In this document: piece after piece, positions 5,791 to 54,502 of the stretch
Layout: each line of letters begins with the position of its first letter
How positions within the stretch are numbered: position 1 is the first letter of the stretch
NCBI GenBank assembly: GCA_021805565.1
Contig: JAJZFA010000043.1
Span: 186,001 to 250,000 of the forward strand
Reading direction: 5' to 3'
Length of the DNA stretch: 64,000 nt
DNA from: Pseudomonadota bacterium
Lineage (GTDB): Bacteria > Pseudomonadota > Alphaproteobacteria > Acetobacterales > Acetobacteraceae
Position numbers and translations under genes: made by a program
The notes under the pieces: model-generated
Told to the model about the DNA's origin: nothing
Databases searched by the model: none
What the model saw: the letters and a program-made list of their open reading frames with translations, nothing else

Positions 5791-7290
5791 TCAGTGCACG
5801 GCGGCGTACATAATCTTCTCCTCGGTGGCTTCGTCCATCGAGAATTCCTCCACGATACGGCCCTGGCGGGACACCAGGATGCGATCCGACAGGTTCAAAA
5901 TCTCGGGCAGGTAAGACGAAATCACCGCCACGGCGAGCCCAGAATCCGCCAGATCGTTGATCACGCGGTGTAGTTCGGCGATGGCGCCGACATCGACGCC
6001 GCGGGTTGGTTCGTCGAAAATCACCAGTTTAGGCTGTTGCACCAGCGACCGGGCGATCACCACTTTCTGCTGGTTGCCGCCCGATAGTTCGATCACGCTC
6101 GCCGCGTTGTCGATTGCGCGCACCGCCAGCTTGTCGGTCCAGCGTTTTGCCAGATCGACCATTTCCGTCCGGCTGACGATCATCCCGGCGCCTTGATCGG
6201 AGGCCAGATAGTTGAGGTAGATGTTTTCGGCGATCGACTTGGTTTCAAAAAAACCCTCGATCTTGCGGTCTTCGGTCACATAGACGATCCCGTCCTTCAC
6301 CGCCGGGCGGGGTGTGCGGTAGCGGATCGACTTGCCCTCCAGCCGGGTTTCGCCGCCGTGGAAGAAGTCGCGTTTTACCACTCCGGCAATGATTTTAGCG
6401 GTTTCCGTCCGCCCTGACCCGATCAGCCCGAAAATGCCGGTGATCTGCCCACTGTAGATCGACAGCGATGTATTGCGCACCATCCGTCCCATCGACAGGT
6501 TTTGCACGCTTAGTACCTTGCGCCCGTATGGCCGAGCGGTTCGGGTGGCGCGGGCAGACCCGTAGAGTTCGGCGGACAGCGTGCGCCCGACCATCGCGGC
6601 GATGATCTTGTTACGGTCGAAATTAGCGGCGGCGTCGGTGGCGATATGCCGGCCGTCGCGCAGAATGGTGATGCGGTCGGACACTTCCAGCGCCTCCTCC
6701 AGCGCGTGGGAGATGAATATGATCGACACGCCGTCCAGTTTCAGCCGCTTGATCAGGGCAAAGAAGTGGTATTTTTCTTCCGGCGTTAGTGTGGCGGTCG
6801 GCTCATCGAAGATGATGACTTTCGCCTTATGATGCACCGCGCGGGCGATTTCCACCATCTGCTTCTGTGCCGCGCCCAGTTGCGACACCAGCATGGTCGG
6901 ATCGACATGGAAGTTCAGCGACTGCAGGAACTGCTGCGCGGCGATATAGATACCACGCAGCCGGTTCAGGAATTTCTCGTTGCCCAGGTAGATGTTTTGG
7001 GCCACCGACAGCGATGGCACCAGGCTGGTTTCCTGGAAAACCATCGCGATGCCGTTGCGCAGCGCCTCGGCCGGGTTGGCGAACGACACCGGCTTGCCGT
7101 TCAGCAGCACCTGCCCTTTGGTCGCCTCATACACGCCGGCCATGATTTTGGTCAGCGTCGATTTTCCGGCACCGTTCTCACCAAGCAACGAATGGACCTC
7201 GCCCGGCGCCAGGGTGAAGTTCACCTCGCTCAGCGCGGCGACGCCGTGAAATTCCTTTGTGACGGACTTCAGTTCCAACACCGGCTGCAT
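5791..7290 (-). CDS. Ribose-type ABC importer ATPase (two nucleotide-binding domains)
   Basis: This 499-residue cytoplasmic protein powers the importer encoded by the same operon. It has the RbsA/XylG/MglA layout: domain 1 with P-loop GENGAGKST (37-45), QLGAAQKQMVEIARA signature region and Walker B VIIFDEPTATLT; domain 2 with the degenerate P-loop IFGLIGSGRTETA, signature LSGGNQQKVVIARSL and Walker B LVIFDEPTRGVD. The second-domain P-loop lacks the usual Lys, as is normal in this family. The ATG (7290-7288) shares one base with the stop of the upstream propeller gene (TGATG), so translation is probably coupled. It is the last gene of the operon. Substrate class (sugar, sugar alcohol, autoinducer or purine) cannot be told from the ATPase. 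Confidence 0.93.
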   Translation of the reverse strand: MQPVLELKSVTKEFHGVAALSEVNFTLAPGEVHSLLGENGAGKSTLTKIMAGVYEATKGQVLLNGKPVSFANPAEALRNGIAMVFQETSLVPSLSVAQNIYLGNEKFLNRLRGIYIAAQQFLQSLNFHVDPTMLVSQLGAAQKQMVEIARAVHHKAKVIIFDEPTATLTPEEKYHFFALIKRLKLDGVSIIFISHALEEALEVSDRITILRDGRHIATDAAANFDRNKIIAAMVGRTLSAELYGSARATRTARPYGRKVLSVQNLSMGRMVRNTSLSIYSGQITGIFGLIGSGRTETAKIIAGVVKRDFFHGGETRLEGKSIRYRTPRPAVKDGIVYVTEDRKIEGFFETKSIAENIYLNYLASDQGAGMIVSRTEMVDLAKRWTDKLAVRAIDNAASVIELSGGNQQKVVIARSLVQQPKLVIFDEPTRGVDVGAIAELHRVINDLADSGLAVAVISSYLPEILNLSDRILVSRQGRIVEEFSMDEATEEKIMYAAVH

Positions 7291-8393
7291 CACTTCGTCC
7301 CATCCGCGCCGAGATCGAGCGCGACCACCTGGTCCCCGCCCTTGCTTGCGATCCACAGGACACCGTCCCGCTCCACTGCCGAGGTCACCCCATGCCGCCG
7401 CCCTCCCGCCCGGCTGTGCATGCTGCGAACCGCCTCGAACGTCCCGTTTAGTTCGACGACCAGGCCATACGAGCGGGTCGGTGCCCAGGGCTTGAGGATG
7501 CCCATCTGCTTCAGCGCCCCGCCCTGCATCGGCTCGTGAAACGACATGCCGCTGCGCAGCGCGGGCGCCACCCAATAGGCGGGATCGACCTCGGCCATCA
7601 TCGCGTGGCGGTATGCCGGTTCGCGCATGATGAATTCGATCAACTGGCTGCGCGGCGCGAAGACCGACAGCCAGTAGCCGCCGCGCGCCGACCGCGACAG
7701 GCGCGCGGGATAGCCCGGCAGATCCTCCAGCACCGGTTTGGCGGCCTGCCGGCCAGCGCCGATACGGACCAGCCGCTTGCCCCAGCTTTCGCTGACCACC
7801 ATCTGGCCATCCGGTTCGGCCAGGATCCCGTTCGGAAAGCCCAGCCCGCCGGCAATCCGCGTTGCCCCGCCCGCGCCGATGTCGAACCGCCAGACCGACC
7901 CGCTGTGTCCGCTGCTCAGCAGATCGCGCTGCCAGCCGTCGATGGGATGTTCCGTCGATCCGACGCAGACCAGCAGGGTCCGGTCATCGGCGAAGTCCAT
8001 CGCCGTCACGCAGGACAGCGGCCGGGCGTCGGGGCTGCTCAATGTCCTGCTTGCGCCGCCTTCGTCGTACAGCACGATACCGCCGGCATCCGACGCCACT
8101 GCAAGCAGGCCGGAGGACGCACGCGCCATCGCGGTAACCGAACCCGCCGCGGTCAACACCGCCACCGGTTCGCCGCCATCCGCCGGGTCCAGCCGCAGCA
8201 CCTGGCCGCCGCTGCTAAACATCGGCCCGTTCGGTCCGGCGACGATGTTGTCCGGCGCAGGGACATCGATCGCGACAGAGGCGTTTTCCAGCAAGTTGTT
8301 GGGCTTCAGCGCGCCATCCAGCGGCGGCACCGTCACCGCCGAGGACCCGCGCCCCAACAGCCGGTCGAGGCTGCCGCGCAATGCTGCCATCAT
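7290..8393 (-). CDS. SMP-30/strictosidine-synthase-like beta-propeller protein
   Basis: A 367-residue protein beginning MMAALRGSLDRLLGRGS. It shows the repeating strand pattern of a six-bladed propeller, with landmark motifs GLGFPNGILAEPDGQMVVSE and LEDLPGYPARLSRS, the counterparts of FPNG and LPGYPDN in strictosidine synthase and gluconolactonase/APMAP proteins. Such enzymes are metal-dependent lactonases or esterases. No signal peptide is visible, so it is probably cytoplasmic. The start ATG (8393-8391) overlaps the TGA of the permease-propeller gene (ATGA), and its own stop overlaps the ATPase start, so it is embedded in the transport operon and likely acts on the imported compound. It is clearly diverged from the propeller fused to the permease. 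Substrate unknown. Confidence 0.82.
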   Translation of the reverse strand: MMAALRGSLDRLLGRGSSAVTVPPLDGALKPNNLLENASVAIDVPAPDNIVAGPNGPMFSSGGQVLRLDPADGGEPVAVLTAAGSVTAMARASSGLLAVASDAGGIVLYDEGGASRTLSSPDARPLSCVTAMDFADDRTLLVCVGSTEHPIDGWQRDLLSSGHSGSVWRFDIGAGGATRIAGGLGFPNGILAEPDGQMVVSESWGKRLVRIGAGRQAAKPVLEDLPGYPARLSRSARGGYWLSVFAPRSQLIEFIMREPAYRHAMMAEVDPAYWVAPALRSGMSFHEPMQGGALKQMGILKPWAPTRSYGLVVELNGTFEAVRSMHSRAGGRRHGVTSAVERDGVLWIASKGGDQVVALDLGADGTK

Positions 8394-10543
8394 TGGGCGT
8401 TCCCCCAATAGGCGGTCGCGGCGCTCCAGTCCGGGTCGCCGCTGTTCAGGCGGACGCGGCCGATCCGGTTGTTCGATATGCCGCCCAGGTAGAGCCAGCC
8501 GCGATGTTCGCGCATCGAGGTGATCATCGGATGATTGAGCCCGCCCTGGTCCCACAGCGATTCGATGACGCGGCCCGTGTCGTCGAAGCGGACGACGCAG
8601 CCAGTATTCAGGTTGGGATACAGCCACTGATCCGGGGCGATACGCCGGGCCATGCGGCGGCGGAATCCGGGCATGCGAAGGGCGACGTCCATTGCTGGCG
8701 ACCGCATCCCCAGCAACGCCACCCAATACGTGCCGTCCGATGCTCGGTTGATGTTGTCCGGGTAGCCCGGCAAATCCTCGATCAGGCGTTCGACCTTGCC
8801 CGTCTTCGGGCCGCTGATCCAATAGCGGCTGATGCGGCAGGCCCAGCTTTCGGCGAACAGAATCGACTGGCCGTCGTTGGCGAGGCAGATACCGTTCGGA
8901 AACACCAGATTACGCAAAGCGGTATGGGTGCGTCCGGTGCGGGGATCGTAACAGATGATACGGCCGTTGCCCCGGCTTTCCAGCGCATCGACCGGCCAGT
9001 CGTGCATTTCGTAGCGAATGGTCGCCTCGCTGAAGAAAATCCGCCCGTCTGGCGCGATATCCAGATCGTCGGCCAGCCGCAGGCGCGAATCGTCGATCAC
9101 CGAGAACGGCGAGCGGTTGGTTTCGTCGGTAACCTTGCTGACCGTCCGGTCGCGGGCGATTTTGTACAGCCCCATGCCGCCGACGCAGATCAGCAGGTTG
9201 CGGTCGCGATCGAACGCCATACCCAGCGGGGAGCCGCCGATATGGGCGTACACCTCCCATTTTTTGTAGTCGGGCGGGAAGAAGCGCAGAACATCGCCGT
9301 GGCGGTTGCCGCAGAACAGGTAGTCTTCATCGTCCAGGATCACGTCCTCGGGCGATTCGACTTCTCCCAGGCCTATGATTTCGACGTTTCGAAGCCGGTC
9401 GTTCAGCGCGAAGGCGGTGCCGGAGGCTGCGTCTGTCGAAGCCGGTGGCGGCAGCGTGACATAGGTAGGCGAGACATACACTTTCGACAGCAGTTTATCG
9501 CGGTTCTTCAGCCAGCGGACATCGACGAACACCGCGAACAGCAGCGTCAGGCCCAGCACCATGGGGCCGGAGCCGCTGTTCAGGCCAAGCCTGATCACGC
9601 CGTTGGTCATCAGCAGCACGATCACCGATCCGATCAGTGCCTTGACCACGGACCCGCGCCCGCCGCCCAGGCTGTTGCCGCCCAGCACAGCCGCTGTCAG
9701 CGCCGCGATTTCCAGCCCCATGCCCGTGTCGGTGCCGGCGCCGCCCAGGCGCGCGGCATACAGCAGGCCGGACAGCCCGCACAGCATGCCGGATATGGTG
9801 TAGGATCCGCAGACTGTGCCGCGCACCGACAGACCCATGTTATGTGCGGACCGGCGGGAACCGCCGATCGCCATCGCCCGCCAGCCCGGCCGGCTGCGCG
9901 TCAGGATCACGTGGCCGATCAGCGCCACGACGATCAGCACGACGAAGCTGAACGGCACCCCGGCGATGCCGCCCATGCCGATCAGGTCCCAGATATCGGA
10001 GTCATAGAAACTGACCGACATGTCCTGCGCGTACCGCAGCAGCAGCATATCCACGACGGCACGCACGATGATCAGCGTGACAAGCGTCGTCAGGAACGCC
10101 CGCAACCGGAAGAAGCCGACCAGCACGCCGTTGACGAACCCGACCGCGCCGCACACCAGAATGACCGCCGGCACGACCGCGGCCACCGGCCACCCGGCCA
10201 GATTCAGCAGGGCCAGCGTGGTGAAATTGCCCAGCGCGAAGTTGGAACCGACGCTCAGGTCGATGCCGCCGACGATGATTACCGTCATCATCGCGATGCA
10301 GACCAGACCGAATTCGCCGAGTTGGCGGCTGGTGATCACCAGGATTTGCGGGGCGAAGAAGTCCGGGATCAGAAAGCCGAATGTCGCAATCACGCACAGC
10401 AGGACCGCGAACGGCACCGCGTTGTCGATCCATTTTTTCGACAGCACTTCGCCGACAAGGTGGTCGGGGAAATATCGATATCGTAAGCGGGAAAGAGTTT
10501 CCCGAAGCGGGATTTCGCGCGCGGCGGTTGCTGACGAAGTCAA
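8390..10543 (-). CDS. Fusion: ribose-type ABC permease + strictosidine-synthase-like propeller
   Basis: One uninterrupted 717-residue frame joins two proteins. Residues ~40-345 form an RbsC-type permease with about eight to ten hydrophobic segments and the family motifs VGGIDLSVGSNFALG (91-105) and AVLGGNSLGGGRGSV (285-299). After a linker (~346-385, with a PPP stretch) residues ~386-717 form a six-bladed propeller with LVFPNGICLANDG (546-558), FAESWACRISRYW and DLPGYPDNINRASDG (590-604), the landmarks of strictosidine synthase/APMAP proteins. The permease C-terminus is usually modelled as cytoplasmic, so the propeller would sit under the channel and could hydrolyse the substrate as it enters. 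There is no internal stop, frameshift or ribosome binding site at the join. Both domain calls are firm; the coupled function is inference. Confidence 0.9.
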   Translation of the reverse strand: MTSSATAAREIPLRETLSRLRYRYFPDHLVGEVLSKKWIDNAVPFAVLLCVIATFGFLIPDFFAPQILVITSRQLGEFGLVCIAMMTVIIVGGIDLSVGSNFALGNFTTLALLNLAGWPVAAVVPAVILVCGAVGFVNGVLVGFFRLRAFLTTLVTLIIVRAVVDMLLLRYAQDMSVSFYDSDIWDLIGMGGIAGVPFSFVVLIVVALIGHVILTRSRPGWRAMAIGGSRRSAHNMGLSVRGTVCGSYTISGMLCGLSGLLYAARLGGAGTDTGMGLEIAALTAAVLGGNSLGGGRGSVVKALIGSVIVLLMTNGVIRLGLNSGSGPMVLGLTLLFAVFVDVRWLKNRDKLLSKVYVSPTYVTLPPPASTDAASGTAFALNDRLRNVEIIGLGEVESPEDVILDDEDYLFCGNRHGDVLRFFPPDYKKWEVYAHIGGSPLGMAFDRDRNLLICVGGMGLYKIARDRTVSKVTDETNRSPFSVIDDSRLRLADDLDIAPDGRIFFSEATIRYEMHDWPVDALESRGNGRIICYDPRTGRTHTALRNLVFPNGICLANDGQSILFAESWACRISRYWISGPKTGKVERLIEDLPGYPDNINRASDGTYWVALLGMRSPAMDVALRMPGFRRRMARRIAPDQWLYPNLNTGCVVRFDDTGRVIESLWDQGGLNHPMITSMREHRGWLYLGGISNNRIGRVRLNSGDPDWSAATAYWGNAQ

Positions 10544-10643: not shown

Positions 10644-11669
10644 TTAGCGCAGCAACGCGGCGTAGGCTTGCGGGTCCCAGCATGTGCCGGCTTTGACGTC
10701 GGCCTTGGTCATCACCTGCGTGGGCGAGTAAAGCTGGAACTTGATCGACCCGGCGGGCTGCTTGCTTTGCAGCAGGGCGCTGATCGCGGTGAACGCATCG
10801 CGGCCCATGCCAGGTGCATTGTAGTCGATGACAGCCGAGAATGTGCCGTCCGCGAGACGGTCGCACATGCTTTGCGCGCCGCCGCCGGAGGTCAGGAAGT
10901 AAATCTGCCCTTGCTTGCCGGCCTGCTTTATCGCGGCACCGGTGCCGACGCCCTGGCCATCCCACATATCGGCGATACCGCAAAGATCGGGGTTCTGTTG
11001 CAGCACCGTCTCGGTCACCGCGCGCGCCTTGCTGGCGTCCCAGTCGGCTGCCTGGCTGGACACGACCTTGATCTCGGGATGTGCCTTCAGACCTTCCAAC
11101 AGGCCCTTCACCTGGTAATAGCTGACGCCGCCGGTCAGCACGCCCTGCACGATGGCGATTTTATGCGATGTCTGAGTGTCCTTGCCGCAGGCCTTGGCCA
11201 TCATCTCGGCCTCCTGCTCGCCCATCGAGATGAAATCCGGGCCGACGAAAGCGTCGGTCTGTACCGCGCCCTGCATATTCATCTGGATCACCCGGATACC
11301 CGCCGCGTTGGCCTGCTTCAGCAGACGGGCCAGCGATTGCAGGTCCGGATTCTGGGTGACGATCACGTCCGGATGTTCGGCGATCAGCGACGTCATCGCC
11401 TGCGCCATGGCGTCGGTGCTCCAGTTCGGATCGCGCGCCTTGAACGTCATGCCGTAACGGTCGGCCTGGGTCTTGATCACGCCGCCCCAGGCCTGCGCCA
11501 GATCGAACCCGATGGAGATGGGCAGATACGCGATCGACTTGCCCTTCAGCGCGGCCAGCGCCGGATCCCGATACGGATCGTTCATATTGTCCTGGGCACG
11601 CGCCGCGACACCGCCGACGGTCAGGGCGGCAACCGCGATCGCGGCGAACCGTAGCAAAGCTGATTTCAT
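10644..11669 (-). CDS. Periplasmic sugar-type substrate-binding protein of the ABC importer
   Basis: A 341-residue periplasmic type I binding protein. The start ATG (11669-11667) has GGGAG nine bases upstream and opens a clear Sec signal: MKSALLRFAAIAVAALTVGG then VAARA before QDN. The mature part has the two-lobe alternation of the ribose/galactose-binding family, including IAYLPISIGFDLAQAWGGVI, LIAEHPDVIVTQNPD and GIADMWDGQGVGTGAAIKQA. It should bind the substrate and deliver it to the two permeases. It lies between the stand-alone permease (67 bases upstream) and the fused permease (100 bases downstream). Two Cys residues in AKACGKD and PDLCGIAD could form a disulfide. The ligand is not recognisable from sequence. 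Confidence 0.92.
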   Translation of the reverse strand: MKSALLRFAAIAVAALTVGGVAARAQDNMNDPYRDPALAALKGKSIAYLPISIGFDLAQAWGGVIKTQADRYGMTFKARDPNWSTDAMAQAMTSLIAEHPDVIVTQNPDLQSLARLLKQANAAGIRVIQMNMQGAVQTDAFVGPDFISMGEQEAEMMAKACGKDTQTSHKIAIVQGVLTGGVSYYQVKGLLEGLKAHPEIKVVSSQAADWDASKARAVTETVLQQNPDLCGIADMWDGQGVGTGAAIKQAGKQGQIYFLTSGGGAQSMCDRLADGTFSAVIDYNAPGMGRDAFTAISALLQSKQPAGSIKFQLYSPTQVMTKADVKAGTCWDPQAYAALLR

Positions 11670-11736: not shown

Positions 11737-12723
11737 TCAGATGTCTCCCTGCTGGCCGGTTTGCTCGTCGCGTGGATTGACGATGCTATCCGACACGATC
11801 GCAAACAGCAGGATCAGACTCTTGATGACGTTCTGGACGGTGTACTGCACATCCATGATCGTCATTCCGTTCATCAGCACGCCGATCAGCAGCGTGCCGA
11901 CAATCACGTTGCGAACCCCGCCGCGGCCGCCGCTGAGGCCGACGCCGCCCAGCACCACGACCAGAATCACGTCGTAGATCATGTTGGAATTCACGATGCG
12001 GGTGTTCATCGCACCCACCGAGGTCGCGGTGATCAGCCCCGCCAGGAACGTGGCGCCGCCCGACAGCACGTACTGGAACACCAGCATCGGCCGCACTCCG
12101 ATGCCGCCGATCCGCGCCGCGTTGAAGTTGTCGCCCATCGCGAAGATGAACCGGCCGGGCTTGGTGTATTTCAGAAACAGATACGCCGCGAAGGCCGTTC
12201 CGGCGGCAACGACGATCGGCATCGGAACCCCCGCGACCACACCTTGCCCAAGTTCGACGACCGCCCCCATGTCACGGGGCAAATAAACCACATCCGTTCC
12301 GGTGATCAAATGGGCCCGGCCGAACCCGTAAATGAACGTCGCCATCGCCAGCGTGGCGAACAGCGAGGGGATTTCCGCATAGGCGATCAGGATGCCGCCG
12401 ATCAGGCTCATGCCCAGCGCAAACGCAAGACCGACGCACAGCGCGAGCCAGACCGGCATGCCGCCGGCAATGAGTTGCAGCGCCCAGCCGACCGAGATCG
12501 CCATGTTCGCCACGATCGCCAGATCGATCCCGCGGCCCAGCACCACGACCAGCATCGCCACGCCCAGCATGCCCAGCACCGCGACGCTGCGGACCAATGC
12601 CAGCAGATTGGCCGGGGCGAGGAAGTTATGGAGTTCAATCGCAAACACCGCGAACAACGCAATCGTAATAAGAAAAACGATCCGCTCCTGGCTGAACGAT
12701 CGTTTCGACAGGCTCACCGCCAT
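11737..12723 (-). CDS. Ribose-type ABC permease
   Basis: A 328-residue inner-membrane permease, first gene of the operon. It has about nine hydrophobic segments and the RbsC-family motifs LGRGIDLAIVANMAISVG and VVLGGVGLSGGRGGVRNVIVG; the first is altered from the usual GGIDLSVG. Together with the permease half of the fusion protein it would make a heterodimeric channel served by the double ATPase. The C-terminus (NPRDEQTGQQGDI) is short, so unlike its partner it carries no extra domain. The start ATG follows a 281-base region after mutL that must hold the operon promoter, unless the operon is read from mutL. Confidence 0.92.
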   Translation of the reverse strand: MAVSLSKRSFSQERIVFLITIALFAVFAIELHNFLAPANLLALVRSVAVLGMLGVAMLVVVLGRGIDLAIVANMAISVGWALQLIAGGMPVWLALCVGLAFALGMSLIGGILIAYAEIPSLFATLAMATFIYGFGRAHLITGTDVVYLPRDMGAVVELGQGVVAGVPMPIVVAAGTAFAAYLFLKYTKPGRFIFAMGDNFNAARIGGIGVRPMLVFQYVLSGGATFLAGLITATSVGAMNTRIVNSNMIYDVILVVVLGGVGLSGGRGGVRNVIVGTLLIGVLMNGMTIMDVQYTVQNVIKSLILLFAIVSDSIVNPRDEQTGQQGDI

Positions 12724-21025: not shown

Positions 21026-22228
21026 CTAGCCGGCAATCGTGCCCTGTTCGATGAACCGGGCGACTTCGGCGGCGGTAAAGCCCGCTTGCGTCAGCACCTC
21101 GGCGGAATGCTCGCCAAGCCGGGGCGGTTGACGCACGATGCCAGGCCGATCGCGTCCCGGTCCGAACTCGACGGGCAGCGCGGGCAGCCCCACTTTCGTG
21201 CCCGCGCTGCCGCCGAGGCGCGAAATATAGACATCCAGCAGCCCGCCGGTCGCCATCAGATGGGGATCGGTAAACAGATCGCCGGGCCGGCCGACTGGCG
21301 CCCACGATACATTGGCCCGTTCGCAGCGCGCCTCGGCCTCGGCCTGCGGAATCTCCGCCAGAATTTGTTGCAATGCCGGGATCAGCCACGCGCGTTCCTG
21401 TAACCGCATCAGATTGGTGGCGAGGCGCGGGTCGGCGGCCAGGTCCTGAAGCGCGAATTCCTCGGTAAATCGCGTCCATTGCCGGTCGGACGTAACGCCG
21501 ATGAACAACTGGCCGTCCTCGGCGGTCTCGAACACCTCATAAATGGCCCAGGCGCCGCGCCGGGCGGGCATCGGCAACGCGTCCAGGCCGGTCGCCGCCA
21601 TTCCGGCCATGTGGGTGCTCATCAGGAACGCGGCGCTTTCGAACAATGCGCTGCCGACGCGCTGTCCCATGCCGGTCCGGTCCCGTTCGCGCAGCGCGGC
21701 CTGGGCGGCGACCACGCCGAACACCGCGCCCAGGATATCGACCACCGACGCGCCGGCCCGCAGCGGCTGGCCGGGCGGGCCGGTCATGAAAGCGAGGCCG
21801 GTCTGGAATTGCACCACCTCATCCAGCGCGGGCCGGTGTTCGTAGGGGCCGGCCAGATAGCCTTTCAGCGCGAGATAGATCAGCCGGGGATTCAACGGCG
21901 CAAGCTGGTCGTATCCGCACCCCAGGCGCTCCATCGTGTTCGGGCCGTAATTTTCCAGCACCAGATCGGTGGCCGGAATCAGGCGGTGGACGATCGTCCG
22001 GCCCTCGGGCTGCTTTAAATCCACTGCCAGGCTGCGTTTGTTGCGGTTGAACGCGGCGAAGAATCCGGCGGCGAACCCGCCGAGGCCACGTGTGTGGTCG
22101 CCCATTGGCGCCGGTTCCACCTTGATCACGTCGGCGCCAAGTTCGGCAAAGATTAGGCCGGCGGTCGGGCCCATCACCGTATGGCTGAATTCAAGCACAC
22201 GCAGGCCCGCCAGCGGCCGCGCGGTCAT
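21026..22228 (-). CDS. Family III CoA-transferase (CaiB/BaiF type)
   Basis: A 400-residue enzyme that moves CoA between carboxylic acids. The N-terminus has GLRVLEFSHTVMGPTAGLIF, then GADVIKVEPAPMGDHTRGLG, and the core has HRPALDEVVQFQTGLAFMTG with Asp136 in the place of the catalytic Asp that forms the acyl-aspartyl intermediate. The motif DLKQPEGRTIVHRLIPATDLV is also typical. The start ATG overlaps the stop of the flavin monooxygenase gene (ATGA), so the two are one unit. The likely role is activation of a carboxylate produced by, or fed to, that monooxygenase; the acid is unknown. A second, clearly different member lies at 46247-47374. Confidence 0.93.
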   Translation of the reverse strand: MTARPLAGLRVLEFSHTVMGPTAGLIFAELGADVIKVEPAPMGDHTRGLGGFAAGFFAAFNRNKRSLAVDLKQPEGRTIVHRLIPATDLVLENYGPNTMERLGCGYDQLAPLNPRLIYLALKGYLAGPYEHRPALDEVVQFQTGLAFMTGPPGQPLRAGASVVDILGAVFGVVAAQAALRERDRTGMGQRVGSALFESAAFLMSTHMAGMAATGLDALPMPARRGAWAIYEVFETAEDGQLFIGVTSDRQWTRFTEEFALQDLAADPRLATNLMRLQERAWLIPALQQILAEIPQAEAEARCERANVSWAPVGRPGDLFTDPHLMATGGLLDVYISRLGGSAGTKVGLPALPVEFGPGRDRPGIVRQPPRLGEHSAEVLTQAGFTAAEVARFIEQGTIAG

Positions 22229-46246: not shown

Positions 46247-47374
46247 CTAATCGGCAAAGGCCGCCCGGATCGCGGCGCTGTTCTGTCCGATGGATGGAAC
46301 AGCGCCCAGGTTCAGCGTCTCGCCCACGCGGATAACCGCTGGAGCGATAATCTCCGCCACGCCGCCGTCCGGCAGCGCCACCTTCGTCCGTCGCAGCGCC
46401 GGGTGATCGCGCAGCGCGGCCAGATCGTTGACGAATCCATAAGCGGTGTTGGACTTACGCAATTTCGCCGCCGCCTGGTCGCGGGTCAGTCCGGCGAACA
46501 TCTGTCCGACCCGTTCGTCCACCATTGTTCGGTTGGCAACGCGGATCGTGTTGGTTTCGAATCCAGGTTGACGCGGCAGATCGGGCGCATCGAGGAACGC
46601 CGAACAAAACGCGGCCCATTCGCGTTCGTTTTGGATGGAGATCAACACCAGCGCGCCATCGGCGGTGGCGAACGCGCCGTATGGACAGATCGACGGGTGC
46701 GCCAGCCCGAGTCTTTGGGGCGCCTGACCGGTGCCCTCGAAATACAGCAGCGGCACGTTCATCCAGTCGGCCACGGCATCGAACAGGCTGACTTTCAGCC
46801 CCTTGCCGCGTCCGGTCCGGGATCGTTCGATCAATGCTTCCAGGACACCTGTATAGGCGTTCATGCCGCAGCCCACGTCGGCGATCGACACGCCCACGCG
46901 GCCCGGTCCGGCCGGGTGTCCGGTGACCATGGCAAGCCCGGATTCCGCCTGGATCAGCAGATCGTACGCCTTCATCGAGGCGTATTCGCCGGTTTCGCCA
47001 TAGCCGGAAATATCGACGGTTATCAGCCGTTCGTGGCGCGCCCGCAATGTATCCGATCCGAATCCGGATCGTATCGCCGCGCCTGGCGCGAGGTTTTGGA
47101 CGAACACATCGGCCTTGGCGATCAGCCGGTGCAGCAGGGCCGCGTCGTCCGGATTTTTGATGTCCGAGACAAGGCTTTCCTTGCCGCGGTTCAGCCAGAC
47201 GAAGTAGCTGGACAGGCCCAAAACCGAGCGGTCGTAGGCGCGGGCGAAATCGCCTTCGGGGCGCTCGATTTTGATGACACGGGCGCCGGCGTCGGCGAGG
47301 CGGGCGGAACAATACGGGGCGGCAACGGCTTGTTCCAGCGAAACGATCAACAGGCCTTCCAGCGGTTTGGTCAT
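46247..47374 (-). CDS. Family III CoA-transferase (CaiB/BaiF type)
   Basis: A 375-residue enzyme that moves CoA between acids. It has LLIVSLEQAVAAPYCSARLA, ADAGARVIKIERPEGDFAR and KAYDLLIQAESGLAMVTGHP with the catalytic Asp at Tyr-Asp. The start ATG (47374) has AAGGA nine bases upstream; the longer in-frame extension covers the divergent hydrolase remnant and is Pro/Arg-rich shadow. It is only distantly similar to the enzyme at 21026-22228. The neighbouring divergent hydrolase fragments suggest that this locus once held a small catabolic cluster for an organic acid. Confidence 0.92.
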   Translation of the reverse strand: MTKPLEGLLIVSLEQAVAAPYCSARLADAGARVIKIERPEGDFARAYDRSVLGLSSYFVWLNRGKESLVSDIKNPDDAALLHRLIAKADVFVQNLAPGAAIRSGFGSDTLRARHERLITVDISGYGETGEYASMKAYDLLIQAESGLAMVTGHPAGPGRVGVSIADVGCGMNAYTGVLEALIERSRTGRGKGLKVSLFDAVADWMNVPLLYFEGTGQAPQRLGLAHPSICPYGAFATADGALVLISIQNEREWAAFCSAFLDAPDLPRQPGFETNTIRVANRTMVDERVGQMFAGLTRDQAAAKLRKSNTAYGFVNDLAALRDHPALRRTKVALPDGGVAEIIAPAVIRVGETLNLGAVPSIGQNSAAIRAAFAD

Positions 47375-47479
47375 GGTCCGGTTTCCTTGTCGGTGGGCAG
47401 AACAGGACCACGCGCGGAGCGGTCTGGGCAAGGGCCGGGCGGGTAAATTGCGGTCAACGATACCGAGAGAGGAAACGGC

Positions 47480-47742
47480 ATGAGCCGCCACATAACCATC
47501 GCTGGCGCCGATCTGGAGATCGAAGACAGAGGGCAGGGGCGTCCGGTCCTGTTCCTGCATCCCGGCGAGGGGCTGCAACCGGATCGTCCCTGGCTGGACC
47601 AGTTGGCGCTGACCCATCGCGTGATCGCGCCGCATCATCCCGGTTTCGGCGGGTCCGCACTGCCGGACTGGATCGGCACCGTGGACGATTTGGGCTATCT
47701 GTATCTCGATCTCGCGGCGGCGCCGCGGCCGATCGAACCGGG
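47480..47742 (+). pseudogene. Alpha/beta hydrolase remnant (5' part only)
   Basis: The start ATG has GAGAGGAAAC upstream and the first 80 codons are a normal alpha/beta hydrolase N-terminus: DLEIEDRGQGRPVLFLHPGE (oxyanion region HPGE), LTHRVIAPHHPGFGGSALPD and VDDLGYLYLDLAA. Homologues continue for another 180 residues with the catalytic Ser and His; here the frame changes at about 47715-47745 into the end of a different gene and stops at 47770. All three catalytic residues are lost. A deletion that fused this gene to the next is the simplest reading. Confidence 0.72.
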
Positions 47743-48111
47743 GTGTTCGCGGCCTGGAAATCCGGGATGACGGCGTTGGCGAAACGTCCCAACGTAACGG
47801 TAAAACTGGGCGCGCTGCCGATCCGGTTACCGAACCCCGGCGCCCCGCCGCGCGACAGGCCACCGGCGTCGGAGGGAGTGGCGGCAGCGTGGCGTCCATG
47901 GCTGGAAACCAGCATCGACGGGTTCGGTGCCGGCCGCTGCATGTTCGAGCGCAATTTTCCGGTGCAGAAGCGTTGGAGGTCCTATGCCGTGACGTGGAAT
48001 GCGTTCAAACGGATCGCGGCCGGCGCTTCGGCCGCGGAGAAAACCGCGTTATTCGCCGGAACGGCCGTTCGGATTTATGGCGTTCCGCCGTGTTGGCGCG
48101 CCGCGGGGTAA
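47740..48111 (+). pseudogene. Amidohydrolase remnant (3' part only)
   Basis: About 120 codons match the C-terminal third of an amidohydrolase_2 (TIM-barrel) enzyme: FAAWKSGMTALAKRPNVTVK, LGALPIRLP, WRPWLETSIDGFGAGRCMFE and WNAFKRIAAGASAAEKTALF. The N-terminal two thirds, with the metal ligands, are missing, and the segment NFPVD of the family reads NFPVQ here. The frame differs from the hydrolase remnant before it. There is no start site of its own. It is the right-hand half of a deletion scar. Confidence 0.72.
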
Positions 48112-49223: not shown

Positions 49224-52200
49224 CTAAATACTGGATATCGGCCCGCCATGCGGATCGGGCACCACAGGCTGCGCCGCCGCTCCGGCCGGGGCCGCGGCGC
49301 GCGACAAAAGCACGGCCGCGTGTTTCGTCAGGTCTTCGGCGGCGATGGGCTTACGCAAAAGGATCGTTGCGTCATCGCTGCCCGAATCGATTTCCAGTTG
49401 AAGGGTCGGATCGGCATAGCCCGTTAACAACAGTGCCGGAATATCTGGCATGCGAAGGCGGACTTCATAAATCAGCAGCAGCCCATTCATGCCAGGCATG
49501 GACATATCGGTTATCAGCAAATCGAACGGCTCGCCGGCATCGGTCAACGCCAGTGCGGCCAAGCCGTCGGATGCAGCGGTCACACGGTAACCCTGGTCTG
49601 CCAGTTGTCCGGCCAACGCCTCGCGTACGAACGCATCGTCATCGACCAGCAGCACGCGGGGAGACCGCGGAGCGGCAAGCGCGGACGATTGCGGAAGGGC
49701 TGCATCGGCCGGGTCCGCCGCGGCCGGTGCCACGGGAAACCACAGGCTTATGGTCGTGCCCTGTCCGGGAGCGCTGTCGATGGAGAAGGCGCCACCGGAC
49801 TGCTGGGCGAACCCGCGCGCCATCGCCAGCCCAAGGCCGGTCCCCTGGCCGGCCGGCTTGGTTGTAAAGAATGGCTCCGAAGCCCGAACCAGGGTTGCGG
49901 CATCCATACCGGTGCCGGTGTCGGTGACATCCAGCCGCACATAGTCGCCGTTGCGCAAAGCCGCCGGGTAATCCGGCAAACCGGGAACCGTTTGACCCCG
50001 GGCCGCCAGAATAAGGATACCGCCACCCGGCATCGCGTCGCGCGCGTTAACGGCGAGATTGATCAGCACCGTTTCCAGTTGCGCCTTGTCGGCCATCAAC
50101 GGCGATGCATCCGCCTCGGCCTGTATCCGCACCGAAATGCCGGCTCCTAAGGTGGATCCCAGGATCTCCCGCAGGCTTTCCAGCAGCGTTGCCGGCGGAA
50201 CCTGAACCGCCCGCAATTCGCCGCGCCGGGAAAAAGCCAGCAATCGGCCGGTGATCGCCGCGCCGCGCGCCGATGCATCGCCCGCCATGCGTGCGAGCCG
50301 GGCAACCGCGACTGGGTCGGCGGAGCGCCTCTCGATCAGCGACAGGCCGCCGGACACTGCTTGCAAAACATTGTTGAAGTCGTGCGCGATGCCACCCGCT
50401 AGCTGGCCCAGCGCTTCCATTCGCTGCGCCTCCGCCAACTGTGCTTGCACCTGTACGCGGGTCGCGGTTTCCTCGGCCACGCGCGCCTCCAATTGTTCGT
50501 TCAGGCGCCGCAGGCCTTCCTGATTCGTGCGCAGCGCCGTTTCGGTCGCGATCTGTTCGCTGACGTCCACATTGCTGCCGAACCAGCGAACGATCGCGCC
50601 GCCGGCATCGCGAACCGGCACGATGCGCGTCAGAAACGGACGGAACACGCCATCGGCGCCCCGCAATGGGAATGTCATGTCGAACACCGCGCCGGTCGCC
50701 AGGCAGGCCTGCCAGCGCTCCGTTACCTCCGCCAGCATGTCTGGGTGGTGTACGGACTGCCAGCCCCAGCCCTCCAGGTCGAGCGATGTCGCGCCGGTGT
50801 AATCGTACCAGCGCTTATTGTACCAATAAATCCAGCCGGTCGCGTCCGCCATCCAGCAAAGATGCGGTTGTTGCTCTCCCAAGGCGCGAAATTCCTCTTC
50901 GGATTGCCGCAGCTTGTCTTCGGCCTGCTTGCGGGCCGTGATATCGATGGCCGTGCAAATCGCGCCGGTCACCGTCCCGGCATAATCGAGCAGCCCGACC
51001 GCCTGCATGTAAAGCGTAACAGACGTGCCGTCGGTAAAGACAATATCGAGTTCCTCTGGCGCGACCTCTTCCCCGCGTGCCGCCCGCTGCAACGGAAGAC
51101 GGTCAGGCGGAACCTCGGCGCCATCCTTCAACACACGAAAGTTGTTGGGAACGTTTTCCGGGGCGCCTGTCATCGAAGGGTTAGCCGACGCCGGCAAACG
51201 CAACAACGCGGCGGCATGGCGATTGCCGGTTACTCTCTCGGCGTTCCGGTCGTCGGTGAACCAAACCGCCGCCGGCACGGTGTCGATCACCGCGCGCAGT
51301 TGCGCCCGTTGCGCATTGAAGGCGGCCTCGCCGTGCCTGCGTTCGGTCAGGTCGCGCGTAACCGAACCATAGCCGGTCACCGAACCCCGCGGATCGCGGA
51401 TCTCGAACAGATTGTAGTGAACGGGGATGCTCGCGCCGGTTTGGAAATGCCGGAAATGCAGTTCCCCGCTCCAGCGCCCGAGCGCCTCGATCGCCGGCAA
51501 GACGGTGGCCCGCACGATCGTCTGGCTGTCGGGCGTGAAATAATCCACGACGGCGGACTCGCGCACCGCGGCGAGATCCGGCAATCCGACCAGCCGCAGC
51601 CCGGCGTCGTTGACAAAAAACGGCCGCATCGCGGTATCCGCGAAACCGATGAAATCCCCCGACTGATCGGCGATGGCGGCCAGACGGCCGCGCTCTTTAT
51701 CCGCTTCCCGTTCGGCGGTGATATCGATGTGTACACCCACCCACTCGCCGATCGAACCGTTGCCGGACAATACCGGGACCGCCCGGACAGAGCAGTGTCG
51801 CCACGCGCCGTCGTGACGCCTGACGCGGTGTTCGAAGAGAAACGGGTGGCGTTCGGCGACCGCTGCTTGCCATGCCTCCACCGTGGCGCGAGCGTCGTCG
51901 GGGTGTATGGCGGCGGTCCAGCCGTAACCCCGATAATCGGCCGCTGATTGGCCGGTAAATGCCGTCCAGCCGGGCTGTTCCCCCTCCATCTCGCCCGCGG
52001 CGTTGTTGGTCCACAGAATGCCTTGCACGGCCTCGATCGCTGCCCGGAAGCGCCGTTCGCTTTCCGCGACTGCCTGTGTCGCGTCGCGACGCAGTCGAGC
52101 CAGCGACAGGTTGGCCCGCACGCGCGCCTGAAGTTCCCGCGCGGAGAACGGTTTCAACACGTAGTCGTCCGCGCCTGCTTCCAGCCCGTCGCTTCTGTCC

Positions 52201-54335
52201 ACCTCGCCGGCACGGGCCGACAGAAGGATAATGGGCAGATCGTGCAGCCCGGCCTCGGCCCGCAGTGCCCGGACCAGACCGATACCGTCCAGGCGCGGCA
52301 TCATGATGTCAGCCAGCACAAGGTCCGGGCGGCGCTTCCGGATCGACTCCAGGGCCGCCTGCCCGTCGGACACCGCCTCGACGTCCCACCACGCGGACAG
52401 CAGGCGTTGCACATAGGCGCGCATATCCGCATTGTCGTCGGCGAGCAAAATGCGCGGGCGATCCACGCTGTCCGGCAACGCGCCGGTCTCGGCAGGCCCG
52501 GTTTCCGCGTCGTCTAAACTGTCGGGCAACCAGGCTTCCGATTGTCCACCGTAAGAACGCGCCCGAACCGGCGTTCCGGCGCTCGGTTCCGGTGCGCCGC
52601 GGCCGTCCGCCACGGCCGCGGCGCCGAAGGGAAGCGTCACCGTGAAAATTGTCCCCGCCCCCGCCTCGCTCGCGGCTGCGACGGTGCCTCCGTGCAGTTC
52701 CACCAGATCCCGGACCAGGGCCAACCCGATGCCGGTGCCTTCGTGGGACCGGCTGCGCTGTCCCTCGATCCGGTGGAAGCGTTCGAACAGGCGCGGCAGT
52801 TCGGCGGCGGGAATGCCCACACCGGTATCCTCGACCTCCAGCATCGCACAGGCCCCATTGGCAAGCAGCCGCACCGCGATTTCGCCCTGGAAGGTGAACT
52901 TGATGGCGTTGGACAAAAGATTGAGGACGATCTTTTCCCACATGTCCCGGTCCACGAACGCCGGCTGACCCAAAGGCGGACAGTCCACAACCAGGCGCAG
53001 CCCCGCGCGTTCGCACGCCGACCGGAACCCCGACGCCAGATCCGCGGTCAACTCAGCAAGGTCCACCGGTTCCCGCACGGGCCGGGCGCGTCCCGCTTCA
53101 ATGCGGGAAAAATCCAGCAGCGTATTGACCAGTTTCCGCAGCCGCAGGGCGTTGCGGTGAGCCATGGCGAATTCGTCGCGAAGCCGGGGTGCCACGTCCG
53201 CCGCATCGGCCGCGAGCGCGTCTTCCAGCGGACCGAGCAGAAGCGTCAAAGGAGTTCGGAATTCGTGGCTGACATTGTCGAAAAACGCCGTCTTGGCACG
53301 ATCGATTTCCGCCAGGGCCTCGGCTCGGCGGCGTTCGGCTTCATAGGCGAGCGAATTGCCGATCGCGGTCGCGACCTGACGCGCGACAAGGTCCGCGAAG
53401 CCGCATACTTCCGCCACCGGCCGGTATGGATTAAGCCCGGCCACCATCAACCCCAGCGGTTTGGCAGTTCCGGAATGGAGCGGAATCACCGCTACCTGAT
53501 TCGGCGGTATTTCCCATGCACCGCGGGGAAGATTTTCGATGCCGGCAACGTCGGCATACCGCACTTCGCCGCCGGCCCAGGCTTCGGCGAATGGCAGCGG
53601 ATGCGGGGAATCGCCATCGAGGCGAACCGTTTCCGGACAGTATCTGGCACCGCGTTCGCAACCGGCGGCGCCGGCCAGGCGGAGGGTACGCGACTGCTCA
53701 TCCGGCACTGTGTAGAATGCCACGAACGGCAGATCCCGCGATGCTTCCCCGGCAAGACATGCCGCGAAGAAGGAGCAGACGGCATCCGGATGACCGGTCG
53801 TTGCGGCGTTTTCCGCCAGGCGCCGGAGCAATTGAAGGCGGCGCTCTCCGATCACCCGTTGCGTTGTCTCGATGACCGGGCAAAAAACGCCGCCGACGGC
53901 TCCGCTTTCATCCCGGATGGGGCTGTAGGAGAAACTGAAATAGCACTCCTCGGGGTAGCCGTTACGGTGCAAAGATAATAGCAGGTCCTCGGCTCGCGTT
54001 GCCACGCCATCCTTGAGAACGCCATTCAGCATCGGATCGATCAGAGTCCAGATCTCCGGCCATACGAGTCGTCCTGGCCGTCCCAGCGCGGCGGGATGCT
54101 TCGTGCCCAGGATCGACGAATACGCATCGTTGTATAGCATCGCGAGGTCCGGTCCCCACCACAACAGGATCGGGAACGCGCAGTTCAGGCAGGTGCTGAC
54201 CGATGTGCGAAGGCTTTGCGGCCAGTTTTCGGGTGCCCCGAGCGGTGTGGCCGTCCAATCCAGCGCGCGCATCGCGGCGCCGAGTTCGTTTCCGCCGGCG
54301 AGAAAGTCGAAGGTTCCGCGGGTTGCCGATGTCAT
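49224..54335 (-). CDS. Giant hybrid sensor protein with two histidine-kinase cores and two receivers
   Basis: A 1703-residue cytoplasmic sensor, counted from the ATG at 54335 (GGGA six bases upstream; a TTG 18 bases earlier is less likely). Order: PAS-like domain (~20-160), GAF domain (~175-335), first kinase with dimerisation motif SHEFRTPL (phospho-His357), N-box NLLSNAIKF and GTGIGLALVRDL (to ~570); receiver 1 with LLADDN and phospho-Asp676 in LADIMMP (~627-745); PAS domains at ~760-875, ~885-1000, ~1010-1135 and ~1145-1265; a coiled segment; second kinase with GGIAHDFNNVLQ (His1318), INLAVNARDAMP and GTGLGLAMARG; receiver 2 with VDDD and Asp1610 in ITDMSMP. No membrane helix is seen. The order means a phosphorelay within one chain; the input is unknown. 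Confidence 0.93.
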   Translation of the reverse strand: MTSATRGTFDFLAGGNELGAAMRALDWTATPLGAPENWPQSLRTSVSTCLNCAFPILLWWGPDLAMLYNDAYSSILGTKHPAALGRPGRLVWPEIWTLIDPMLNGVLKDGVATRAEDLLLSLHRNGYPEECYFSFSYSPIRDESGAVGGVFCPVIETTQRVIGERRLQLLRRLAENAATTGHPDAVCSFFAACLAGEASRDLPFVAFYTVPDEQSRTLRLAGAAGCERGARYCPETVRLDGDSPHPLPFAEAWAGGEVRYADVAGIENLPRGAWEIPPNQVAVIPLHSGTAKPLGLMVAGLNPYRPVAEVCGFADLVARQVATAIGNSLAYEAERRRAEALAEIDRAKTAFFDNVSHEFRTPLTLLLGPLEDALAADAADVAPRLRDEFAMAHRNALRLRKLVNTLLDFSRIEAGRARPVREPVDLAELTADLASGFRSACERAGLRLVVDCPPLGQPAFVDRDMWEKIVLNLLSNAIKFTFQGEIAVRLLANGACAMLEVEDTGVGIPAAELPRLFERFHRIEGQRSRSHEGTGIGLALVRDLVELHGGTVAAASEAGAGTIFTVTLPFGAAAVADGRGAPEPSAGTPVRARSYGGQSEAWLPDSLDDAETGPAETGALPDSVDRPRILLADDNADMRAYVQRLLSAWWDVEAVSDGQAALESIRKRRPDLVLADIMMPRLDGIGLVRALRAEAGLHDLPIILLSARAGEVDRSDGLEAGADDYVLKPFSARELQARVRANLSLARLRRDATQAVAESERRFRAAIEAVQGILWTNNAAGEMEGEQPGWTAFTGQSAADYRGYGWTAAIHPDDARATVEAWQAAVAERHPFLFEHRVRRHDGAWRHCSVRAVPVLSGNGSIGEWVGVHIDITAEREADKERGRLAAIADQSGDFIGFADTAMRPFFVNDAGLRLVGLPDLAAVRESAVVDYFTPDSQTIVRATVLPAIEALGRWSGELHFRHFQTGASIPVHYNLFEIRDPRGSVTGYGSVTRDLTERRHGEAAFNAQRAQLRAVIDTVPAAVWFTDDRNAERVTGNRHAAALLRLPASANPSMTGAPENVPNNFRVLKDGAEVPPDRLPLQRAARGEEVAPEELDIVFTDGTSVTLYMQAVGLLDYAGTVTGAICTAIDITARKQAEDKLRQSEEEFRALGEQQPHLCWMADATGWIYWYNKRWYDYTGATSLDLEGWGWQSVHHPDMLAEVTERWQACLATGAVFDMTFPLRGADGVFRPFLTRIVPVRDAGGAIVRWFGSNVDVSEQIATETALRTNQEGLRRLNEQLEARVAEETATRVQVQAQLAEAQRMEALGQLAGGIAHDFNNVLQAVSGGLSLIERRSADPVAVARLARMAGDASARGAAITGRLLAFSRRGELRAVQVPPATLLESLREILGSTLGAGISVRIQAEADASPLMADKAQLETVLINLAVNARDAMPGGGILILAARGQTVPGLPDYPAALRNGDYVRLDVTDTGTGMDAATLVRASEPFFTTKPAGQGTGLGLAMARGFAQQSGGAFSIDSAPGQGTTISLWFPVAPAAADPADAALPQSSALAAPRSPRVLLVDDDAFVREALAGQLADQGYRVTAASDGLAALALTDAGEPFDLLITDMSMPGMNGLLLIYEVRLRMPDIPALLLTGYADPTLQLEIDSGSDDATILLRKPIAAEDLTKHAAVLLSRAAAPAGAAAQPVVPDPHGGPISSI

Positions 54336-54502
54336 TGCGATCCCGGTTGTCAAAAAGGGGTCATGGCACGCCCGCGATCGGCGAACATGGGCGGATGGAA
54401 GCGGATGGCGCGGTATTCACGCGCCGCCACTCATCCGGACGTGGCGCTTCGGGCGCGTGCATCCGGAAAGATCATACATATCTATTTCGTAACAGAAGAC
54501 CG

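Follow-up and report, generated by a model that had tools for sequence, protein, structure and literature searches.

We analysed a 64,000-nucleotide stretch of an Acetobacteraceae genome (GenBank assembly GCA_021805565.1, contig JAJZFA010000043.1, positions 186,001 to 250,000; hereafter the window). Its minus strand carries a gene in which an RbsC-type ATP-binding cassette (ABC) permease and a six-bladed propeller with the residues of a metal site are joined in one intact frame. This fusion lies in an operon whose gene content is best explained as an ATP-driven uptake system of the RbsABC type. A first-pass annotation had described the intact fusion within its operon, and this structural observation is confirmed and proved more general than first stated. 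Its functional idea of uptake-coupled hydrolysis is plausible and partly supported. We give about an even chance to an importer that opens a probably lactone-type cargo through a metal-dependent propeller hydrolase tethered to its channel, with a dead propeller as partner. The fusion, its conservation, the operon, the metal-site residues kept or lost and the charge topology rest on sequence and structure models.

Intactness and recurrence of the fusion

The fusion gene and its parts are as follows (open reading frame, ORF; amino acids, aa).

8390..10543 (-), fusion of permease and strictosidine-synthase-like propeller, 717 aa (ORF list, Pfam, AlphaFold2)
9512..10429 (-), permease domain, residues 39-344, about 10 membrane segments (Pfam, model helices, charge topology)
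9416..9511 (-), linker (residues 345-376), conserved and with a basic start
8393..9415 (-), six-bladed propeller, residues 377-717

The ORF at 8390-10543 is a single 717-aa frame with 0 internal stops. Both domains are recognised by Pfam and modelled by AlphaFold2, in line with the first reading of one intact frame. BPD_transp_2 covers residues 79-337 (6.9e-32, 111 bits, cut-off 26.8), and over its membrane core the fusion belongs to the RbsC-type permease family (PF02653). The C-terminal part matches SSL_N (377-421), Str_synth (492-579, 1.4e-20) and SGL (429-612). In the AlphaFold2 model (mean pLDDT 86), the last membrane helix ends at residue 356 and the strands of a six-bladed propeller run from 388 to 698. 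Searched by sequence against the PDB, the permease half alone had no match at 0.01.

Fetched loci yielded 108 fusion ORFs, some loci being overlapping views of one gene; 102 of the ORFs have at least 680 aa and the other 6 are truncated by a locus or contig end. For alignment we used the window's fusion and 58 others, which stand for 100 of the 108 (680-760 aa, reduced at 88% identity). Identity to the window's fusion is 0.588 over the linker versus 0.576 over the permease part, and residues 345-360 hold on average 3.9 lysines and arginines (K+R) in these 59 fusions. An assembly or sequencing artefact, such as a frameshift joining two genes, was rejected because full-length frames are conserved across other genomes, recurring in named isolates, complete chromosomes and plasmids; we regard it as refuted for practical purposes.

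Matches to the fusion at 1e-70 occurred in 7 of 40 near genomes, and matches were found in 10 of 385 genomes of a class sample and 13 of 398 of a phylum sample (2 of these being stand-alone propellers), the window's own genome included each time. This genome has a second full operon (locus L181, contig C3:216-7200), with a fusion 49% identical to the window's. Behind that operon come an AMP-binding acyl-CoA ligase-type gene (8361-10076, opposite strand) and two short-chain dehydrogenases (SDRs). When named genomes were scanned with peptide patterns, 294 stretches proved to encode a relative; the best 80 were kept and include Bradyrhizobium, Mesorhizobium, Rhizobium, Variovorax, Alcanivorax and others. 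Fifteen plasmids, one in Pantoea, carry the fusion, and a phage search gave no match at 1e-20. The spread found thus covers alpha-, beta- and a few gammaproteobacteria. By script, the order permease, binding protein, fusion, second propeller, ATPase was recovered in 67 of 80 fetched loci; 10 of the other 13 miss a component or have one cut in the script search, several at contig ends.

Separate searches with each half were made in 372 class genomes, with no more than five candidates scored per genome. The permease half gave 17 matches at 1e-45, all fused, in frames of at least 559 aa, the shortest truncated by its contig. No unfused close relative was among these 17, a count in which more distant split forms could be missed. 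With the propeller half, these 17 places came up again (49-100% identity), together with 12 stand-alone propellers (34-39%, frames of 358-417 aa), one with a stop codon within its match. Two phylum genomes have a stand-alone propeller at 42% identity, with no match to companion permease, binding protein or ATPase within about 9 kb. As all permease-half matches are fused, the fusion is a stable, and presumably old, trait of this lineage.

Metal-site residues and predicted topology of the propellers

Four predicted metal ligands were located in the fused propeller.

9347-9349 (-), E399
9065-9067 (-), D493
8894-8896 (-), N550
8756-8758 (-), D596

The lactonase/DFPase/paraoxonase superfamily has four metal-ligand positions, and 59/59 fusion representatives keep all of them. 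Their equivalence with those of DFPase was established by hhalign, with Asp in the fusion where DFPase has Asn120. To judge from its residues, the fused propeller therefore has the four-ligand set of the N6P metal-dependent hydrolases. The catalytic Glu of Rauvolfia serpentina strictosidine synthase, which we take to be Glu309 (chain position worked out from chain length and range), aligns with an invariant Thr675 in the fusions. Strictosidine synthase function was rejected for the fused propeller, which lacks the catalytic Glu and has the metal-ligand residues. Because the four metal-ligand positions are kept and this Glu is lacking, the Pfam name strictosidine synthase seems misleading, and a metal-dependent hydrolase is the likelier identity. 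Of the strictosidine-synthase-like hydrolase first proposed, the hydrolase part stands in that the metal-site residues are intact; the strictosidine-synthase likeness comes from the Pfam name, and the residues fit metal-dependent hydrolases.

The second propeller, a diverged gene directly after the fusion (7290..8393) as first described, differs at this site. In an alignment of 80 of 98 sequences (reduced at 85%), none (0/80) has more than one of the four ligands of the N6P hydrolases, the positions being mapped through the fused propeller (hhalign, probability 100) rather than directly onto DFPase. A hydrophobic N-terminal stretch was found in 0/80. Since the metal site is lost, the second propeller is probably a cytoplasmic pseudoenzyme partner. 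The second operon of locus L072 also carries it. In a loop at about residues 276-312, K301, W303, P305 and G310 are invariant and model confidence is very low at 292-305; this loop is possibly a partner-binding segment.

For the topology of the fusion, loops were delimited by the helices of the AlphaFold2 model and their K+R charge was compared. In 59/59 fusions, the loops assigned to the inside sum to a mean K+R of 14.3 (minimum 12), and those assigned to the outside reach 3 at most. Because the stretch behind the last membrane segment is basic (3-4 basic residues), the fused propeller is predicted on the cytoplasmic side. The charge distribution agrees with the cytoplasmic tail on which the first reading had made its idea conditional.

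The operon, its neighbours and a possible cargo

On the minus strand, the operon reads 5' to 3' permease, binding protein, fusion, second propeller and ATPase, with the fusion as the third gene. Its other members are:

11737..12723 (-), companion RbsC-type permease, 328 aa, no extra domain (Pfam BPD_transp_2, 8.1e-21), first in the operon by position
10644..11669 (-), binding protein of the periplasmic sugar type (Peripla_BP_4), 341 aa (Pfam, 9.3e-48)
7290..8393 (-), second, unfused propeller, 367 aa
5791..7290 (-), RbsA-type double ATPase (ABC_tran twice; start at 7290)

The set of binding protein, permeases and double ATPase is that of an RbsC-type importer. By eye, the N-terminus of the binding protein resembles a signal peptide, and the NCBIfam models nearest to the ATPase are those of AraG, XylG-type and RbsA-type sugar importer ATPases, all below their cut-offs. 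The stop codon of the fusion and the start of the second propeller (8393) share 4 bases, an overlap also seen in 77 of 100 fusion-second propeller pairs (duplicate views of some genes included), and the second propeller is probably made by coupled translation. A promoter scan upstream of the operon found none; the one terminator-like site there is about the number in shuffled sequence. The upstream neighbour of the operon is MutL, the downstream one a KUP-type K+ transporter.

The companion permease yields BPD_transp_2 alone, as had been noted at first. The asymmetric heterodimer then proposed holds in that the companion lacks the extra domain; because the operon also encodes the second, unfused propeller, the complex may hold two propellers instead of the single one supposed.

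Catabolic neighbours of the operon largely track the fusion tree, with neighbour clusters named from one representative each and many loci stopping at contig ends. We assigned the tree groups ourselves, placing the window in the first despite its lack of such neighbours and leaving 30 rows ungrouped. In the clade nearest the window, most members have Zn-alcohol dehydrogenase, aldehyde dehydrogenase, CoA-transferase III and LysR, sometimes joined by acyl-CoA dehydrogenase, FAS1-like hydratase, MmgE/PrpD and an HpcH lyase closest, below cut-off, to RipC of itaconate degradation. In a second clade, the neighbours are AraC and an AMP-ligase with enoyl-CoA hydratase (ECH). At L068:14721-17411, directly after the transporter operon, acyl-CoA ligase and enoyl-CoA hydratase form one chain, and L053 has a similar frame. 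A third neighbour set, not one clade, comprises SDR, MmgE and 3-hydroxyisobutyrate dehydrogenase-like genes, in some loci with metallo-beta-lactamase genes. From the nearest clade, our best guess for the cargo of the window's operon would be a lactone of five or six carbons or the corresponding hydroxy acid.

Degradative HMG-CoA reductase (HMGR) lies upstream of the operon in L112, L054 and L168, which requires three changes on the tree; L054 and L168 share the order HMGR, CoA-transferase, enoyl-CoA hydratase, permease. The trio of HMGR, CoA-transferase III and enoyl-CoA hydratase is an independent cassette, since it is also present without the fusion in L167 and L177, and perhaps serves mevalonate use. 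Among nine typical neighbours sought in the window, CoA-transferase alone matched, and it was not taken as linked. Two CoA-transferase family III genes were seen on the minus strand, at 46250-47899 (53% match to the typical neighbour at 46268-47380) and at 21029-22228 (29% match at 21095-22213). A 1709-aa frame at 49227-54353 (-) has histidine-kinase, two receiver and several PAS domains.

Proposed mechanism, alternatives and known systems

Metal binding, hydrolysis, a lactone substrate, trapping and the composition of the complex we infer as follows. The transmembrane pair would consist of a plain permease and a permease bearing a metal-dependent propeller hydrolase on its cytoplasmic face. 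The binding protein would hand over a small polar compound, probably lactone-type or ester-like, which the channel would release beside the fused propeller. The propeller would open the ring, and the product, a charged hydroxy acid, would be trapped without back-leak and enter oxidation and CoA-dependent catabolism. The second propeller would be a catalytically dead paralogue that most likely plays a structural or regulatory part by binding either the ATPase or the fused propeller. Some neighbour genes agree with this lactone model. More tentatively, the operons may form an importer family that converts cargo at its cytoplasmic exit, in which a tethered lactonase traps leak-prone neutral lactones and a pseudoenzyme propeller regulates.

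Several observations weigh against the tethered-hydrolase model. Median pairwise identity across 70 operons is 0.686 for the fused propeller, 0.672 for the ATPase, 0.579 for the companion permease (slightly affected by L057 and L077, two misassigned entries in which the fusion's own permease half was taken), 0.542 for the fused permease part, 0.48 for the binding protein and 0.43 for the second propeller. These are 70 of the 80 loci, 10 being excluded for a missing or cut component, and 67 of them have the confirmed five-gene order. Conservation of the fused propeller matches that of the ATPase, not that of the more variable binding protein, with which one would expect a substrate-specific enzyme to diverge; in the 71 pairs with binding proteins less than 40% identical, the fused propeller still stands at 0.682. 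Neighbour pathways also vary by clade, and the AMP-ligase/ECH and SDR/MmgE sets do not require a lactone. The window's operon, between MutL and the K+ transporter, has no catabolic neighbours, and close homologues of two tested typical neighbours are absent from its own genome (best 44% and 37%). The fusion lies within about 9 kb in 1 of 14 HMGR genomes of the phylum sample (four stretches end at contig ends) and on 1 of 37 HMGR plasmids. In the topology, the inside-assigned loop 91-97 has zero basic residues, the boundary of segments 8 and 9 was set by hand (model helix 277-287, next 298-318), and the assignment leans mainly on the basic N-terminus, loop 217-239 and the C-terminal stretch.

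Because the propeller is conserved where binding proteins diverge, its ligand is probably common to systems with different cargo, either a shared group like a lactone ring or a regulatory ligand. The latter would suit a sensor or gate, in which binding of a cytoplasmic ligand (the imported compound, its product or a metal) to the fused propeller sets transporter activity by trans-inhibition, the second propeller co-regulates and no catalysis on the cargo is needed. ATPase-like conservation beside a drifting binding protein, the fixed place of the second propeller in 67/80 loci and a 4-base overlap that suggests fixed stoichiometry all favour it, and ABC importers with C-terminal regulatory domains are known. 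However, all four metal-ligand positions are kept in 59/59 fusions and lost in the unfused paralogue, and a mere binding domain would not need all four; we consider a sensor a serious but unlikely alternative. Strong conservation despite differing neighbour pathways would also suit a purely structural role of both propellers, as scaffold or assembly domains of the heterodimeric permease, but the invariant residues include all four predicted ligands, which makes this role improbable. Rather doubtful, too, is an ordinary co-expression fusion, a cytoplasmic lactonase tethered by chance with no role beyond stoichiometry. Lactonases and ABC importers often share an operon and the linker, some 30 residues long, might be flexible, yet this linker is as conserved as the permease and no unfused form was seen among the permease matches scored.

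If the propeller of the preferred tethered-hydrolase model acts on the cargo, the system would be an ABC importer that carries its own first catabolic enzyme; it would be the ABC equivalent of phosphotransferase systems, which couple uptake to modification. Both the physical coupling of hydrolysis to uptake and the pairing of an enzyme with a pseudoenzyme on one transporter could be tested in it. The permease half is concealed by the annotation SMP-30/gluconolactonase/LRE family protein; of 12 plasmid records in which the matched region has a feature, 10 use this name. As the first-pass annotation had supposed, no characterised transporter of this build was found among the matches listed in open-licence literature.

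The operon resembles the RbsABC, YtfQRT-YjfF and LsrABCD importers in its binding protein, double ATPase and RbsC-family (PF02653) permeases. Two different permease genes also occur in the importers with YtfT-YjfF and LsrC-LsrD, as in the window's operon; unlike all of these, it has a propeller-bearing permease and an extra propeller gene. The fused propeller shares the six-bladed fold and four metal-ligand positions with N6P hydrolases (DFPase, SMP-30/gluconolactonase, paraoxonase, RPA3624 lactonase), which are normally free-standing, being soluble, secreted or held by a single anchor, whereas here the propeller is fused to an ABC channel. By sequence and fold (8kg3, 2fp8), the nearest relatives of the fused propeller are strictosidine synthase and strictosidine-synthase-like proteins (PF03088, PF20067), but it lacks the catalytic Glu found in true strictosidine synthase and keeps the ligand positions, two of which (N550 and D596) are not kept in the aligned synthases. 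LplT-Aas, a fusion of a secondary carrier and an acyltransferase, likewise unites transport and the next step in one chain; the window's fusion differs in pairing an ABC importer with a predicted hydrolase.
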